A stretch of 64,000 nucleotides of DNA from an uncultured Olleya sp. (GTDB lineage: Bacteria > Bacteroidota > Bacteroidia > Flavobacteriales > Flavobacteriaceae): positions 248,001 through 312,000 of the forward strand of contig CANNFD010000002.1 of assembly GCA_947503885.1 (NCBI GenBank), written 5' to 3'. The stretch's first letter is position 1, and each line of letters begins with the position of its first letter. The position numbers and the translations under genes are program-made. Positions 3,741 to 11,647 of this stretch are shown one piece after another. Under the pieces are notes generated by a model. The model saw nothing but the letters and a program-made list of their open reading frames with translations. It had not been told where the DNA came from and did no database searches.

Positions 3741-4712
3741 ATGATATTATACCCTTTAAAATTTCAGCCCCTTTATAAATATAGAATTTGGGGAGGTGAA
3801 AAACTAAAAACTGAACTTGGTAAAAATTATACCGAATCGCTAATTGGTGAATCTTGGGAAATATCTGATGTTAAAAATGATGAAACCGAAGTATTAGAAG
3901 GCCCATTAAAAGGTCAAACACTAAAACAGTTGATTAAAAAGTATAAAAGCGACTTTTTAGGACAATCTGTTTACAACACTTATGGAGAAGAGTTTCCGTT
4001 ACTTATTAAATTTATAGACGCCAAAACACCATTATCCATACAAGTACACCCAAGTAATGAGATTGCTAAAAAGCAACATAACTCATTTGGTAAAAATGAA
4101 ATGTGGTATGTTATGCAAGCAGAAAAAAATGCCGAATTAATCATTGGTTTTAAAGAAAACATTACTCTTGAACAATACCAAAACCACTTAAAAAACAATA
4201 CTATACTAGAAGTCTTACATCAAGAAACAGTAAATAAAGGTGATGCATACTACATTCCGACAGGTCGTGTGCATGCTATTGGCGCAGGAGTGTTACTAGC
4301 AGAAATACAACAAACCTCTGATGTCACCTACAGAATCTATGATTATAATAGGGTTGATAATGCTACCGGTAAAAAAAGAGAGCTTCACACAGAACTAGCT
4401 AAAAATGTTATAGATTTTTCTGCTCATAAAGATTACAAAACACACTATAATAAAACTAAGAATCAATCTAATGTCTTAGTACATTCTCCTTATTTTAAAA
4501 CTAACTATTTAAAAATAGAAGGCACTCTAGATAAAGACTACTCAAAAATAGATTCTTTTATAATTTACATGTGCGTGGACGGGGATGCTAAAATAGAATG
4601 GAAAAAGGACACTTTTACATTAACTAAAGGTGAAACCTTACTACTACCCGCTACGATTAAAAACGTATCAATATCCTCAAAATCTAGCGAATTGCTAGAG
4701 GTTTATTTATAA
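3741..4712 (+). CDS. manA: Class I mannose-6-phosphate isomerase
   Basis: N-terminal 'YKYRIWGGEKL', 'PLSIQVHPSNEIA', 'YYIPTGRVHAIGAGVLLAEIQQTSD'. Confidence 0.9.
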   Translation: MILYPLKFQPLYKYRIWGGEKLKTELGKNYTESLIGESWEISDVKNDETEVLEGPLKGQTLKQLIKKYKSDFLGQSVYNTYGEEFPLLIKFIDAKTPLSIQVHPSNEIAKKQHNSFGKNEMWYVMQAEKNAELIIGFKENITLEQYQNHLKNNTILEVLHQETVNKGDAYYIPTGRVHAIGAGVLLAEIQQTSDVTYRIYDYNRVDNATGKKRELHTELAKNVIDFSAHKDYKTHYNKTKNQSNVLVHSPYFKTNYLKIEGTLDKDYSKIDSFIIYMCVDGDAKIEWKKDTFTLTKGETLLLPATIKNVSISSKSSELLEVYL

Positions 4713-5734: not shown

Positions 5735-5776
5735 AAAAACCTACAAACCATTAATTATTAACGATTTATAGGTTTA
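5735..5776 (-). terminator. Rho-independent-type hairpin; duplicated tRNA-Leu terminator at the left element boundary
   Basis: On the - strand AAACCTATAAATCGTT...AATGGTTTGTAGGTTT pairs fully with G-U wobbles, followed by a T-run. Confidence 0.6.
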
Positions 5777-5803
5777 AAAAGTACTCAAGGCGGGAATCGA
5801 ACC
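5745..5803. repeat. attL-like direct repeat (duplicated tRNA-Leu 3' end plus terminator)
   Basis: 59-bp direct repeat of 11531-11589, 55/59 identical by eye; identical 31-bp core TTTAAAAAGTACTCAAGGCGGGAATCGAACC at 5773-5803. Confidence 0.9.
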
Positions 5804-5934
5804 TATTAAAACCACACCCTCCTACAACCTCAACAAAAACAACGAAACTTCAATAAACACCACTATTAAAGGGCATAGCAAAAACAATACAGCAATTGAA
5901 TTAAATTTAATACGATTTAATATGTTGCTAATTT

Positions 5935-5956
5935 GGTTGTCATATGGTTGTCAAAC
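5935..5956 (+). repeat. Left tandem motif GGTTGTCATAT-GGTTGTCAAAC, candidate integrase/excisionase arm site
   Basis: Two 11-bp iterations of GGTTGTCAnAn; near-identical pair at 11490-11511 inside the right end. Confidence 0.5.
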
Positions 5957-6000
5957 TAGTAAAAATTGTTTAATTTTACTTAGTTCAAAATTTATAAAAT

Positions 6001-7311
6001 ATGGCAACTGCAAAATTTGAGGTACTAAGCAATTCTATTAACGCACCTATTTATTTAAGACTATCAATAAAAAGAGGATTAACACCACGAGCAAAAACAG
6101 GCTTATTTATAAACTCTAAAGACTGGAGTAAAGACACTAAACTACCCAAGCAAAGCAATGCTAAAAATAAAAATCTAAAAACTGATTTGTTGAAACTACA
6201 GGCTTACATACTTGACAAACATAACGAGGCTTACAAAAACAATACAACTACAGACAAGCAATGGCTTGAACATTATATAGATGTTTACTTCAATCGTAAA
6301 GACGAAAACAACACCAAAACAAATGTTACATATTGGATTGAGTACATAATTAAGAACTCACACCTAATGAATAACTCAAAAGGTGGATACGGACTAAGCA
6401 AGAACAGACTAAAGGCTTATAATAGTCTTTTAAATAGGTTTACAGAGTTTCAAGGCAATAAAACAATAAACATTAAAGACCTAGACAACAAAACCTTTAA
6501 CAAGTTTAAAAAGTGGTTGTTTGAAGACAAAGCATATAGTCCAAGTACTGCAACAAAATTTTTAACAGACCTACAAAGAGTAGTCAAAGTCGCATCCGAA
6601 TTTACACCAATTGCAGAAAATTTTAATAGTATTAAATTCAAAAAAGTAAGTACTTATGATGACGATATGAATGTAATAACCTTAACTGAAAATGAAATTA
6701 TTAAAATACAAAAAGCAGACCTAAAAAAAGAAGCATTAATCAACGCAAGAAAATGGTTAATTTTAGCCTGTTACACAGGTCAAAGAGGCGACACCCTATT
6801 AAACAGGATAAAAGAAGAAAACTTTATAAAACGAGGTAATGATTTCACAATAAATATTAAACAAAAAAAAGTAAACCAATCAATTAAAATACCTGTATTA
6901 CCTCAAGTTAGAGAAATTTACGAAAACGGATTGCCTTATAAAATATCCACACAAAAACTCAATGAACACATTAAAACCATTTGTAAAATAGCCAAAATTG
7001 ATGATTTGGTAATGGGTAAAAAAGTTAATAAGGACACGAAAAGAAACGAAAAGAAATTAAGACCGAAATACGAATACATAACAAGCCATACTGGAAGACG
7101 TACTTTTGCTACTATTCATTATTCAAAAATACCAACTCCTTTATTAATGAAAGTAACAGGTCACAAAAAAGAAAGCACTTTTTTAGAATACATTAACCAA
7201 AGCCAAGAAAACCACGTTGATATAATATTAGACTACTACAGAACTCTAGAACTTAAAGAACGTAAAGAACCTGTATTAAATATAGTTGACAAGGCTTCAA
7301 ATCAAAATTAA
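6001..7311 (+). CDS. Tyrosine recombinase / phage-type integrase
   Basis: Catalytic motifs 'CYTGQRGDTL' (R), 'TSHTGRRTFAT' (HxxR), 'VTGHKKESTFLEYI' (H...Y); SAM-like core-binding region. Confidence 0.95.
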   Translation: MATAKFEVLSNSINAPIYLRLSIKRGLTPRAKTGLFINSKDWSKDTKLPKQSNAKNKNLKTDLLKLQAYILDKHNEAYKNNTTTDKQWLEHYIDVYFNRKDENNTKTNVTYWIEYIIKNSHLMNNSKGGYGLSKNRLKAYNSLLNRFTEFQGNKTINIKDLDNKTFNKFKKWLFEDKAYSPSTATKFLTDLQRVVKVASEFTPIAENFNSIKFKKVSTYDDDMNVITLTENEIIKIQKADLKKEALINARKWLILACYTGQRGDTLLNRIKEENFIKRGNDFTINIKQKKVNQSIKIPVLPQVREIYENGLPYKISTQKLNEHIKTICKIAKIDDLVMGKKVNKDTKRNEKKLRPKYEYITSHTGRRTFATIHYSKIPTPLLMKVTGHKKESTFLEYINQSQENHVDIILDYYRTLELKERKEPVLNIVDKASNQN

Positions 7312-7725
7312 AAACAAAAATAATATTAACTCTTTATTGTTAATACTTTTTTGATTCTTTTTAAATATCTGAAACCCCTTTAAAAACTGCTTGTAGACCT
7401 ACATTTCAACAATCGATGTTAAGAACGTTGACTAGATTTAAAATAATACAACTTAATAAATGTATTTCAATTATTATATTTGTTATATAAACAAAAAGAG
7501 TCCACCTTTTCAAGCAAACTCTTTGAAATTCATTTATTTAGTTAAGTTTTTGCGGACAAACTAAATATTGTATTTTATTCTGATACAAATATAATAATTT
7601 ATAATTAATATCATTTTAATTATATACTTATTTTTAATGAAGACTGATTCTACTATTATAAGTAGTGTTAGTTTAATTCAAAGACTGTTGGTTAAAGTAA
7701 CTCTTTAAATAAATTTTATTTAATT

Positions 7726-8010
7726 ATGAGTAATAACCAAATTCAATTAATTCAGTTATCTACTGAACAACTTCAAAACGTCGTAATTGAGGGCGTAAAA
7801 ACGTATCTAAACGACTTTAGAAAGCAATTAGAACCAAAGACACCAACCGAGTATTTAACACGCCGAGAGGTCGCGAAAATGCTTTCGGTTGACTTGTCGA
7901 CAATTCACAATTGGAAGAAAAAAGGAATTTTAAAAGCCTATCAAGTTGGTGGTCGCGTAATCTTTAAACGTGAAGATGTTGAAAATGCAATAGTTGAACT
8001 TAAAAACTAA
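7726..8010 (+). CDS. Helix-turn-helix (excisionase/HTH_17-like) protein
   Basis: 'EYLTRREVAKMLSVDLSTIHNWKKKGILKAYQVGGRVIFKREDVENAI' is a typical MerR/Xis-like HTH. Confidence 0.88.
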   Translation: MSNNQIQLIQLSTEQLQNVVIEGVKTYLNDFRKQLEPKTPTEYLTRREVAKMLSVDLSTIHNWKKKGILKAYQVGGRVIFKREDVENAIVELKN

Positions 8011-8014
8011 TTGT

Positions 8015-8404
8015 ATGGCAACGCAAACACAAAAACCAAATGTCTATGTTTTTAATGAAATTAACATAGGTAAATATAAGGGCGTAAAACATTACGAACT
8101 TAACGAGCAGACAACCTCATCTGAAAAGTTAGGTAGATATTTAAACATTAGTGTTAACAGAAAATTTGCCTTATCAAACCCAGACTATTGGGTAAAAGTA
8201 AAAGAGGGCAAAAAGTGGAAAACACATTGCTTAACAGGATTGTTTAAAACCAACTTTAAAGAAGTTTACAAAGGAGATGCAGACAGAAAAAAACACCTTT
8301 TGCTTTTTAAATTTGTAGACAATCAAACCAAAGTTATTGTTTACTACTTTGAGAACTACTTCACAAACGATTTAAGCAACGTTTCGCAACAAATTAACCT
8401 TTAG
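8015..8404 (+). CDS. Hypothetical protein of the integrative element
   Basis: ORF with likely ATG at 8015 (MATQTQKPNVY), not the listed 7994 start that overlaps the upstream gene; followed by a terminator. Confidence 0.6.
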   Translation: MATQTQKPNVYVFNEINIGKYKGVKHYELNEQTTSSEKLGRYLNISVNRKFALSNPDYWVKVKEGKKWKTHCLTGLFKTNFKEVYKGDADRKKHLLLFKFVDNQTKVIVYYFENYFTNDLSNVSQQINL

Positions 8405-8413
8405 TACTTAAAC

Positions 8414-8444
8414 AACAAAAGAGGGCGTAAAAACCCTCTTTGTT
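8414..8444 (+). terminator. Hairpin terminator
   Basis: AACAAAAGAGGG-cgtaaaaa-CCCTCTTTGTT. Confidence 0.7.
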
Positions 8445-8509
8445 ATTTCAAATGTTGAGGTAACGTGGCAACGCATACCCATAACTCAAATATACAAAAT
8501 TTTATATAA

Positions 8510-9427
8510 TTGCCTTTAGATTTTTTAAAAATAAAGATAGTTGACACTACTACAATAAAGGCATTGTGGGAAAACCCTCTATTGTATTTTCACTCTAAAG
8601 ATGAAACACTTTTAAAAGACAGGGAAACAATACACACTAAAGACAAAAAGCAATATAAAGGAATACTATTTGAACTAACATCATACGCCTTATATATAGA
8701 GTTTAAACCTCATTATTTTTTTAATGACAACAAACACAATGCTAATGATTTTAGTGTTGAGAATTGCATAAAAACACTATCTAAATTTATTAATCTTTTT
8801 AGTTTAAATCCGTTTCATTTACAAGTTATAAATATTGAGTTTGGCGTAAATATAATAATACCAAAAAAACTGATTTGTGTTAAAGAATTATTATTGTGTT
8901 TAGTATTTCATAATAAAAATGCATTTCACACAGACCGAAGATTTCCTTTTACAAGATATAGTTCAAAATCAAATGTTATTGGCAAAACAAATGTATATAA
9001 GATAATAAAAGCCTATGCTAAAGGAGTACAATTTCCAGCAGTAACAGATGTAAATACTTTTAGGTTTGAAGTTAAAAGTAATAGAAAAGAATATATTAAA
9101 AAATTAGGTGTTGAAACATTAAACGATTTACTAAACAAAGACACCTATTTAACTTTAGAAAAACATATTTTAAACGAGTTTGACAACGTTTTAATAATAG
9201 ATGACACAATAACTCCTAAAGTATCAAAGACAAGGCTAAAAACACACCAAAAACGATTAAACCCTATGACGTGGCACAGGTATTTACAAAGCACAAGAAA
9301 TGTTTTTAGGCGTAATTTTAAAGACTACTACAAAACACTTGACACTTGTAAATCACATCTTAAAAAAGAACTAAGGTTATTGATATATAACAAACTTCAA
9401 GAATTAAAAAAAAGTGTGCAGATTTAA
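8510..9427 (+). CDS. Putative phage/plasmid replication initiation protein (Phage_X / gpII-like)
   Basis: 'TFRFEVKSNRKEYIKKLGVETLNDLLNKDTYLTLEKHILNEFDNVL' resembles the C-terminal half of filamentous-phage-type Rep proteins; start codon uncertain. Confidence 0.5.
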   Translation: MPLDFLKIKIVDTTTIKALWENPLLYFHSKDETLLKDRETIHTKDKKQYKGILFELTSYALYIEFKPHYFFNDNKHNANDFSVENCIKTLSKFINLFSLNPFHLQVINIEFGVNIIIPKKLICVKELLLCLVFHNKNAFHTDRRFPFTRYSSKSNVIGKTNVYKIIKAYAKGVQFPAVTDVNTFRFEVKSNRKEYIKKLGVETLNDLLNKDTYLTLEKHILNEFDNVLIIDDTITPKVSKTRLKTHQKRLNPMTWHRYLQSTRNVFRRNFKDYYKTLDTCKSHLKKELRLLIYNKLQELKKSVQI

Positions 9428-9459
9428 ACCTCTATATAGGTTTATTACGCACACTTTTT
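9409..9459 (+). terminator. Hairpin terminator overlapping the end of the Rep-like ORF
   Basis: AAAAAGTGTGC ... GCACACTTTTT with inner AAACCT/AGGTTT stem. Confidence 0.75.
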
Positions 9460-9662
9460 ATTTATTACAACTTAACGCAATAGAGTATGTTTTTTAATTA
9501 ATTAATTAATATTAATATTAATGTTTAGTTATTAGAGTTAATTGCTCTTTAGGTTAGCAAATCAATAGTTGTTTAGAATTGATTAATCAAACTTTTTTCA
9601 ATTCCATAAATACTTTATAGTCTAATGTAATATATTAGTACAATTAATCAATTACAATTTTT

Positions 9663-10697
9663 ATGGATAACAAAAGACTCAAACAGATAACTAACCAAAT
9701 ATCTAAGAATTTACAAAGTTGGGATTTTGACAAAGCAATAAGTTTTAGTACAGACGAAACTCAAACAAGAGATTTCTTAATTGAGCCATTTTTTGAATTA
9801 CTCGACTATAGTAAAATGGATGACTATTTACACGAGTATATTGCAGATATGGGAACTAAAAGAGGGCGTCGAGTTGATATGGCTATTAGTTTTGGCAAAA
9901 ACCAACCAACAATTTTAATTGAGTGCAAAAAAGCAACTATAAATTTAACAGACAACCACTTTAGGCAATTAAACGAATATTGTCTTTACACAGAAACTGC
10001 GAAAATTGGCATAGTAACTAATGGAATCGTTTATGATTTTTATGCTCGTAGTAGTGAGAATAATGTAATACTTAATGAAACGCCTTTTTACTCATTTAAT
10101 TTAACAGACTACACCGATGCAGATATTGAAAAATTAGCATTATTCTATAGACCAACATTTGATATTAATTCTGTATTGCAAGAGGCAGAAGACGTGTATT
10201 TTTTAGAAAAATTTGACAATGCTTTATTTGAAACCTTATCAAATCCTGCTGATGATTTTATAAAACTAATTTATAAAAAAATGGGAGGCAAAAGATTAAC
10301 GCAAAACGTATTAAATCAAATTTACGGATTGATAAACTCTAATTCATTAAAAGTTATAGTTGACAGAATAGTATCAAAAGAGATAAGAGAGTCAAATTCT
10401 GGAATTATAACAACTGCCGAAGAAATAAAAGTTTACAATATAATTAAGACAATATTAGCAATGTCTTCTAAAATTAAAGATGCTGAACTAAGTAGAATAT
10501 CATACAGAGATTTTAAAGGCTCTTTTGCAATTATAGTGGATGAAAGTAGTAGAAAGAAAATCTGCTCATTATTACTGCACAAAAATTTAATTGAAATAAA
10601 TAAAGACACCTTTGAGTTAAAAGGAACAAATACAACATCACTTACTGAATTCAAAAAAGAACTTGTTGCATCTGCTTTAAAAAACCTTAGTGAATAG
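9663..10697 (+). CDS. Solo type I restriction enzyme HsdR-N-like / PD-(D/E)xK nuclease protein
   Basis: 'GRRVDMAISFGKNQPTILIECKKATINL' fits a PD-(D/E)xK core as in HSDR_N; no helicase domain, no adjacent hsdM/hsdS. Confidence 0.75.
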   Translation: MDNKRLKQITNQISKNLQSWDFDKAISFSTDETQTRDFLIEPFFELLDYSKMDDYLHEYIADMGTKRGRRVDMAISFGKNQPTILIECKKATINLTDNHFRQLNEYCLYTETAKIGIVTNGIVYDFYARSSENNVILNETPFYSFNLTDYTDADIEKLALFYRPTFDINSVLQEAEDVYFLEKFDNALFETLSNPADDFIKLIYKKMGGKRLTQNVLNQIYGLINSNSLKVIVDRIVSKEIRESNSGIITTAEEIKVYNIIKTILAMSSKIKDAELSRISYRDFKGSFAIIVDESSRKKICSLLLHKNLIEINKDTFELKGTNTTSLTEFKKELVASALKNLSE

Positions 10698-10748
10698 TAT
10701 AGCCTAAACATTACGCACGTGAAGATGCTAAATAAAGTATTTTAAAAG

Positions 10749-10865
10749 ATGAAGAACTATAAGAACGACACAAGGTTTACATTGCTTTATAGTAAAACAT
10801 TTTGGATTGTTTTAATTGTTTTATTCATTGCATATTCTATACTTAAATCAATTAACTATATATGA
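10749..10865 (+). CDS. Single-TM microprotein (38 aa), not in supplied ORF track
   Basis: MKNYKNDTRFTLLYSKTFWIVLIVLFIAYSILKSINYI; stop overlaps the next ATG (ATGA). Confidence 0.5.
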   Translation: MKNYKNDTRFTLLYSKTFWIVLIVLFIAYSILKSINYI

Positions 10866-11152
10866 ACTTAGAAGAACTACACAAGCATTGCAAAGATGCA
10901 ACACGCAAAGCCTTTAACGAGTATAAAAGGCAAATAGATGTTGCTTTGTTTCCTTTTGATAATTCGGTTAAAGACACACTTCAAGACCAAATGTTAATTG
11001 AAATTGGCAACCCAATAACTAAACACTTTGTAAATAATTACAACCTATCCAGCAAGCAATTAGAATACATTAAAAACACTATTGACCAATATAGACAGAT
11101 TGCATTAAACACTTCAAATAATTACGCCAAACGTTATTTAATTAATGACTAA
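10862..11152 (+). CDS. Hypothetical protein (96 aa)
   Basis: ORF overlapping its neighbours on both sides by 4-8 nt. Confidence 0.6.
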   Translation: MNLEELHKHCKDATRKAFNEYKRQIDVALFPFDNSVKDTLQDQMLIEIGNPITKHFVNNYNLSSKQLEYIKNTIDQYRQIALNTSNNYAKRYLIND

Positions 11153-11249
11153 TAAAGAGCCTAAGAACTACGCAAACCATTTAATAATTCTGTTATTTAT
11201 TATTGCAGTAGTAATTGCTTTAAAAATTGTCTTTAAACTAACAGAATGA
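11145..11249 (+). CDS. Single-TM microprotein (34 aa), not in supplied ORF track
   Basis: MTNKEPKNYANHLIILLFIIAVVIALKIVFKLTE; starts inside the end of the 96-aa ORF and overlaps the next ORF by ATGA. Confidence 0.5.
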   Translation: MTNKEPKNYANHLIILLFIIAVVIALKIVFKLTE

Positions 11250-11470
11250 CATTATACGAGTTTAACATATTAGACCATAACGAACGTATGGAGGTGGTTA
11301 ATCAAAAAGGCGTTTACTTAGATACATATTCAGAACTAACAGAACGTTGCTTATTATATGCTATAGATATGTTTTTTGTAGAGGTTGTTTATGACGTAGA
11401 CCAAAATAAGATTGTCAACTTGAATAGTTTTAAAACAGGTCACTTATTAGATAAGTATTCAAGTCATTAA
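11246..11470 (+). CDS. Hypothetical protein (74 aa)
   Basis: ORF overlapping the preceding microprotein by ATGA. Confidence 0.6.
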   Translation: MTLYEFNILDHNERMEVVNQKGVYLDTYSELTERCLLYAIDMFFVEVVYDVDQNKIVNLNSFKTGHLLDKYSSH

Positions 11471-11489
11471 ATATTGGTTATTTAAATAA

Positions 11490-11511
11490 AGTTGTCAAAT
11501 GGTTGTCAAAA
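11490..11511 (+). repeat. Right tandem motif AGTTGTCAAAT-GGTTGTCAAAA, candidate arm site
   Basis: Matches the left motif at 5935-5956, same orientation. Confidence 0.5.
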
Positions 11512-11520
11512 TAAGAAATT

Positions 11521-11563
11521 AAAAACCCGTAAACCATTAATAATTAACGATTTACGGATTTAA
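11521..11563 (-). terminator. tRNA-Leu terminator hairpin
   Basis: - strand AAATCCGTAAATCGTTAA...TTAATGGTTTACGGGTTTTT with G-U wobbles. Confidence 0.6.
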
Positions 11564-11589
11564 AAAGTACTCAAGGCGGGAATCGAACC
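11531..11589. repeat. attR-like direct repeat overlapping the tRNA-Leu 3' end
   Basis: Pairs with 5745-5803. Confidence 0.9.
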
Positions 11590-11647
11590 CGCACTCCTAA
11601 GAATCGGATTTTGAATCCGACGCGTCTACCAATTCCGCCACTTGAGC
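11568..11647 (-). tRNA. tRNA-Leu (anticodon CAA)
   Basis: - strand GCTCAAGTGGCGGAATTGGTAGACGCGTCGGATTCAAAATCCGATTCTTAGGAGTGCGGGTTCGATTCCCGCCTTGAGTA; full cloverleaf, short variable arm, no encoded CCA. Confidence 0.95.

Follow-up and report, generated by a model that had tools for sequence, protein, structure and literature searches.

What kind of element is it that occupies a tRNA gene with an integrase but no recognisable gene for transfer, and how would it be kept and spread? The question is raised by positions 5735-11589 of the window (the whole stretch of DNA analysed here, 64,000 nucleotides from an uncultured Olleya sp.), a chromosomal element of ~5.8 kb in tRNA-Leu(CAA). A preliminary description of this DNA proposed a minimal integrative or satellite element of a filamentous or rolling-circle type. 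We consider it likely that this element integrates site-specifically and that, when free, it is a small circle replicated by the rolling-circle mechanism. The integrative character and the rolling-circle Rep were borne out; the filamentous satellite was not, as the element has no Zot or coat gene and its Rep family is nearly absent from phage records. Nor is it a one-off minimal element, since it belongs to a family that is widespread and combines a constant core with a changeable cargo that is, by prediction, often directed against phages.

Borders and integration site

The element is bounded by a direct repeat whose two copies are identical at 62 of 69 positions, with an att core of 31 nt without mismatch (5773-5803 and 11559-11589). 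The 59-bp repeat reported earlier (5745-5803 against 11531-11589, 55/59, E 1.3e-20, with a 31-bp identical core) was recovered as part of this longer repeat, and one copy, the right one, does rebuild the 3' end of an intact tRNA-Leu(CAA), complement(11567..11647). The features of the borders are as follows.

5735-5803: left att repeat, the distal element end, with the native tRNA-Leu 3' end and its terminator hairpin
11521-11589: right att repeat, which rebuilds the tRNA-Leu 3' end
11567-11647, minus strand: intact tRNA-Leu(CAA), the integration site (ARAGORN; Rfam RF00005, 5.6e-12)
5936-5963: left GTTGTCA double repeat (86% match to 11491-11518)
11491-11518: right GTTGTCA double repeat, partner of 5936-5963

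From their location just inside each end, the GTTGTCA double repeats are probably the arm sites of the tyrosine integrase. The outer part of both att copies, as read from the sequence, folds as a terminator-like hairpin, and several of the mismatches between the copies preserve its pairing. The differences between the two tRNA terminators (5735-5775 against 11521-11561) are compensatory, though terminators at this site vary strongly among congeners; a close relative may have been the source of the element.

In each of the nine further genomes of the genus, tRNA-Leu(CAA) adjoins PRPP synthetase and the same LacI-type regulator. The empty sites that had been anticipated in related genomes were seen in eight of these nine, where the regulator and the tRNA are separated by ~36-96 bp with only the terminator in between. 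In the ninth (L100), ~6 kb with exonuclease, ligase and helicase genes lies between the same flanks; we rejected this insert as a second element of the same kind, given those genes and the lack of an integrase. The element's integrase is absent from this site in all nine congeners, one of which has an integrase 30% identical to it at another location. Because the site is empty in eight congeners and holds this integrase in none, the insertion is recent relative to the genus.

A replication initiator recognised by its fold

The core genes, with the regulatory unit among them, are listed here (aa, amino acids; HTH, helix-turn-helix).

6001-7311, plus strand: tyrosine integrase (PF13102 2.5e-9, PF00589 2.3e-7, PHROG integrase 5.7e-12)
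7726-8010, plus strand: MerR/excisionase-type HTH protein, 94 aa (HTH_17 1.4e-10, TIGR01764 excise 3.2e-9, PHROG excisionase 1.6e-10)
8015-8404, plus strand: conserved 129-aa protein, all-beta by model (41-57% identity in nine relatives)
8410-8494, minus strand: candidate antisense RNA unit opposite the rep leader (box, hairpin, terminator)
8510-9427, plus strand: Rep, 305 aa, TTG start, putative nucleophile Y169 (AlphaFold2 fold, invariant residues)

The 305-aa protein had been described as a putative Phage_X/gpII-like Rep. We predict that it is a Rep_trans-type rolling-circle initiator because of its modelled fold and its active-site residues, and not because of a match to a family profile. 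Neither Rep nor 25 relatives gave a match of credible E-value in Pfam, NCBIfam or PHROG, or any match in PADLOC, and a search of the PDB by sequence was likewise empty. PF05155 and PF05144 (Phage_X and Phage_CRI) and TIGR01629 found no profile match in Rep or its relatives, and by sequence the protein is not a member of Phage_X/gpII, so that of the earlier assignment only the function as Rep stands.

The AlphaFold2 model, for which 14 homologues from named genomes served as input, has a predicted local distance difference test score (pLDDT) of 88 and a predicted template-modelling score of 0.86. It shows the anticipated Rep-like fold: compared with the PDB by Foldseek, it matched the plasmid-type rolling-circle initiator RepSTK1 (4CIJ; E 1.2e-4, probability 1.00), the only entry at E<=0.001. 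The best viral model (BFVD) was an Inoviridae G2P, at 8.5e-8, and viral TBP-like proteins were also among the matches, as expected for a Rep_trans fold. In RepSTK1, D9, D116 and E196 bind metal and Y179 is the nucleophile, with R177, K181, Q184 and R194 nearby (PMC4797284). Paired by order and spacing rather than by structural superposition, the counterparts in Rep are D4, E110, E187, Y169, K167, K171, Q174 and R185; the distances are 106 versus 107 residues from D to D/E, 59 versus 63 from D/E to Y, and 18 versus 17 from Y to E. In 26 Rep sequences, with aligned relatives down to 20% identity with the window's Rep, D4, E110, K167, Y169, K171, R185 and E187 are invariant, and Q174 is present in the window's Rep. 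Many relatives (e.g. L077:8001-9248) have a C-terminal extension of Rep of ~110 aa with a CxxTGxDISMQK-like motif, which the window's Rep does not have.

The integrase retains all of its catalytic residues (R262, HxxR at 363-366, H388 and Y397). The gene for the 129-aa protein adjoins rep in many relatives, and the AlphaFold2 model of the protein (pLDDT 80.6) matched no solved fold at E<=0.001.

A candidate antisense RNA in the rep leader

Between the gene for the 129-aa protein and rep is a conserved stretch that consists of a hairpin (8418-8441), TTCAAATGTT, a second hairpin with GGCAACGC, and then CAAATATA (8487-8494). When read on the minus strand it begins with TATATTTG (8494-8487), which we take to be a Bacteroidetes -7 box (consensus TAnnTTTG), followed by a hairpin at ~8459-8479 and a terminator hairpin at 8441-8418, from which a structured transcript of ~70 nt is predicted. 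The folding z of the antisense stretch is -4.65. A box and a perfect terminator stem 53-64 nt apart are found opposite the rep leader in 14 of 40 elements; elsewhere in the same loci the combination occurs 6 times in 1.34 Mb, and 0.03 would be expected at the leader position. Across 18 elements the stems come in 15 different sequences, with changes on both sides, and GAAC is present in 12 of the loops. Stem detection required complementarity, and for that reason the position and the background count weigh more than the pairing. Owing to the variable loop lengths, RNAalifold yielded a poor consensus on MAFFT alignments of the leaders, and it was replaced by hairpin detection in each sequence with a whole-locus background. 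In the window itself the T-run of the terminator is weak (TGTTGTTT), no -33 box was established for the unit, and Rfam gave no match.

In pT181 plasmids, which are of the Rep_trans type, an 87-nt antisense RNA (RNAI) lies over the rep leader (PMC5703833). By analogy, the unit would be transcribed and probably acts in copy control as in pT181. The same stretch could also include the replication origin. Repeats of GTTCAAA directly precede the int start codon (window 5970-6000; L077:4590-4660, with similar int starts) and occur again in the rep leader, which suggests a shared operator.

A family that moves between genera

Rep was found in 30 of 400 Flavobacteriaceae genomes by a single-sequence search and in 51 of 398 Flavobacteriales genomes by a profile search, which in a sample of the phylum (22 of 396 genomes, Flavobacteriales included) also reached other Bacteroidia orders. 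The gene order recurs: integrase, a variable slot, HTH gene, in some cases the gene for the 129-aa protein, rep, a second variable slot, and the 3' end of a tRNA. About 25 elements of 5.1-12.3 kb are bounded by att repeats, and they are integrated at tRNA-Leu (four isoacceptors), Asn, Arg, Asp, Ala and Met and at tmRNA. The most complete relative, L081 of Oceanihabitans sediminis, has everything except the nuclease. In a Tenacibaculum metagenome-assembled genome (L087:1-11163) two such elements stand in tandem beside tmRNA, and Rfam identifies a c4-2 antisense RNA at 4068-4149.

The integrase gene and the block from the HTH gene to rep are 88-91% identical among Ichthyenterobacterium magnum (L077), Winogradskyella ursingii (L082) and UBA5079 (L078), whereas the flanking chromosomes are ~67-78% identical, and higher beside the tRNAs. 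Because the cores are so much closer than the flanks and the slot genes differ among the three, recent transfer across genera with exchange of cargo is indicated, and on these comparisons the family moves horizontally. We found no description of the family in the literature searched, which included few subscription papers. Small integrative elements that use a rolling-circle initiator are a known kind; new here are the Rep family, its antisense leader and its reach across Bacteroidia.

Cargo between rep and the tRNA

The interval from rep to the tRNA is the variable cargo stretch, and in the window it contains a nuclease and small open reading frames (ORFs; TM, transmembrane).

9663-10697, plus strand: HSDR_N-type nuclease, cargo (PF13588 3e-11, phrog_4225 endonuclease 1.1e-53)
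10749-10865, plus strand: 38-aa ORF, one predicted TM segment (hydropathy, synteny)
10862-11152, plus strand: 96-aa ORF (56% identical to an ORF in the Oceanihabitans element L081)
11145-11249, plus strand: 34-aa ORF, one predicted TM segment (hydropathy)
11246-11470, plus strand: 74-aa ORF (67% identical in L081, 35-41% in others)

With the integrase, the HTH/Xis-like protein and the 305-aa ORF, these make up the set of ORFs given earlier, which was as described. L081 has a 50-aa ORF with a TM segment before the 96-aa ORF, at the same place as the window's 38-aa ORF. The nuclease carries a PD-(D/E)XK-like VD...ECK motif and had no PADLOC match; it may have a role in defence. As had been stated, no Zot, capsid, relaxase or type IV secretion system (T4SS) gene is visible, and neither these nor coat, terminase or packaging genes were matched among the seven ORFs scanned with Pfam, NCBIfam, PHROG and PADLOC.

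In the relatives the cargo appears often to be anti-phage. Among 114 of their cargo ORFs, PADLOC called DndC/DndD, type III and type IIG restriction, SoFic, PbeC and Tmn, to which Pfam added Abi_2, DndB and DndE. In a further 82 ORFs, taken from more distant loci without fixed element borders, type I HsdM/HsdS, a C5 methylase and Gp49-like toxins were also present. Pfam models for Zot, capsid or relaxase were not among the 25 commonest families listed for the relatives' cargo ORFs. In one case, a Tamlana sedimentorum contig (L032, the same as L079), a Dnd phosphorothioation module lies in an 11.6 kb element at tRNA-Leu(TAG) whose rep frame has a stop near its end.

Proposed mechanism and alternatives

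From the protein families and the att anatomy, the integrase and the HTH protein would recombine the att repeats at the 3' end of tRNA-Leu(CAA), and so excise or insert a circle. On that circle Rep, judged from its fold and active site, would nick the origin and start rolling-circle replication, while the ~70-nt antisense RNA would hold Rep low, like RNAI in pT181. The interval between rep and the tRNA would serve as a cargo bay, in relatives often for anti-phage systems. Candidate vehicles between cells are helper mobilisation, with Rep doubling as a MOBT-like relaxase, packaging, and vesicles; mobilisation by a helper is our leading guess because Rep_trans proteins can be relaxases (PMC5704250). 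The element is real and probably active.

Several points weigh against a rolling-circle replicated circle. The Rep_trans model PF02486 matched none of the 26 family members, and the Foldseek template-modelling score of Rep against 4CIJ is modest (0.38-0.43). No replication origin or nick site was identified in the element. The antisense unit is absent where the HTH gene abuts rep, and elements of that arrangement, being without it, need other control. Plasmid and phage records contain almost no members of the family, with no relatives of Rep in PLSDB or IMG/VR and a single unannotated, faecal record in INPHARED, so that a long-lived free form was not seen. Excision and the circle themselves are predicted from sequence anatomy.

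A possible though less favoured explanation is an integrative and mobilizable element (IME) whose Rep_trans-like protein would act mainly as a MOBT-like relaxase, passing a strand to a helper conjugation system. In Tn916 and ICEBs1 the MOBT relaxases belong to Rep_trans and serve in mobilisation as well as in replication, Rep-like relaxases are employed by streptococcal IMEs (PMC5704250), and the spread of the family across genera would fit; but no coupling protein, oriT or canonical relaxase was recognised in the element, the host genome has no TraG-D_C protein, and an antisense unit resembling copy control suggests replication.

A phage satellite, whether of a filamentous phage or of another, that relies on a helper's virion proteins for packaging is an unlikely alternative. 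The inovirus G2P match to the Rep fold, the integration at a tRNA and the anti-phage cargo of relatives would suit such a satellite, as would a distant relative of Rep beside a terminase gene and a virus-like locus with a Zot-domain ATPase in the host genome; yet the element has no capsid, Zot, terminase or packaging gene, and its Rep family was not found in two scans of IMG/VR and is known from one unannotated phage record only. No PICI-like packaging or capsid-redirecting gene was recognised either, with small ORFs without an assigned family remaining. The distant relative (L139:4789-7595) has a terminase large subunit and a resolvase as neighbours, which may be a link to packaging. The host locus (G000:C9:24000-40000, L143) is a virus-like run of small genes with the Zot-domain ATPase (PF05707, E 1.3e-6); it also encodes a Fic-like protein, together with an ATPase/helicase pair that is reminiscent of a defence module.

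Less probable still is a degenerate remnant that is no longer mobile, for although the genes are few and 7 of 69 positions differ between the att copies, no catalytic residue is missing from the integrase or Rep, both of which are intact, the 31-nt att core is identical, both terminator hairpins still pair, and the gene content agrees with that of the relatives. Charybdis elements (PMC12324425) were set aside, as they have archaeal hosts and no replication gene.

Relation to known systems

Among the systems most like our preferred reading, an integrated element with a rolling-circle replicated free form, are the pT181 family, Rep_trans (PF02486) and RepSTK1 (4CIJ), which share with it the TBP-like fold and the pattern of D, D/E, K/R-x-Y-x-K-x-x-Q and R-x-E with matching spacing; in pT181 an antisense RNA lies opposite the rep leader, where the element has its candidate unit. 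Unlike them, the element has no PF02486 match, is chromosomal with an integrase, resides in a Bacteroidia host and has the additional conserved 129-aa protein. The IMEs of Bacteroidetes (NBU1, Tn4555 and Tn5520) are similarly small and driven by an integrase; NBU1 likewise integrates at tRNA-Leu, and Tn5520 has a canonical MobP-type relaxase. Such a relaxase is also present in NBU1 and Tn4555 (PMC5704250), whereas the element is without one. ICEBs1, Tn916 and the streptococcal IMEs (MOBT) also combine a Rep_trans-type endonuclease with an integrase and an excisionase, but the element has no coupling protein or T4SS and no sequence similarity to them was detected. Inovirus G2P (Phage_CRI/Phage_X) is structurally similar in BFVD, but differs in that the element's Rep lacks the profile match and the element lacks Zot and coat genes.

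Within the Flavobacteriales, the 10K genomic island of Riemerella anatipestifer at tRNA-Arg is likewise a small integrase island at a tRNA and was shown to excise as a circle (PMC6764341); the att pattern of that island had no match in the 13 genomes of relatives searched. Rep-Arvir of archaeal viruses, described in 2026, is another Rep_trans-fold family invisible to sequence profiles (PMC13107129); it differs in being archaeal and in having a wHTH domain, and no Bacteroidota are mentioned there.

Roughly one in eight of the sampled Flavobacteriales genomes has a Rep that Pfam, NCBIfam and PHROGs miss, and for that reason such elements are likely to be read as hypothetical genes beside an integrase. 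We are evenly divided on the broader proposal that they form an undescribed class of integrative elements across Bacteroidia, with Rep_trans-fold initiators invisible to sequence searches and antisense copy control of their own, which would shuttle anti-phage genes between genera with no recognisable relaxase, secretion or virion genes. Being compact and carrying defence systems as swappable cargo, these elements offer a test case for how islands without recognisable transfer genes spread.

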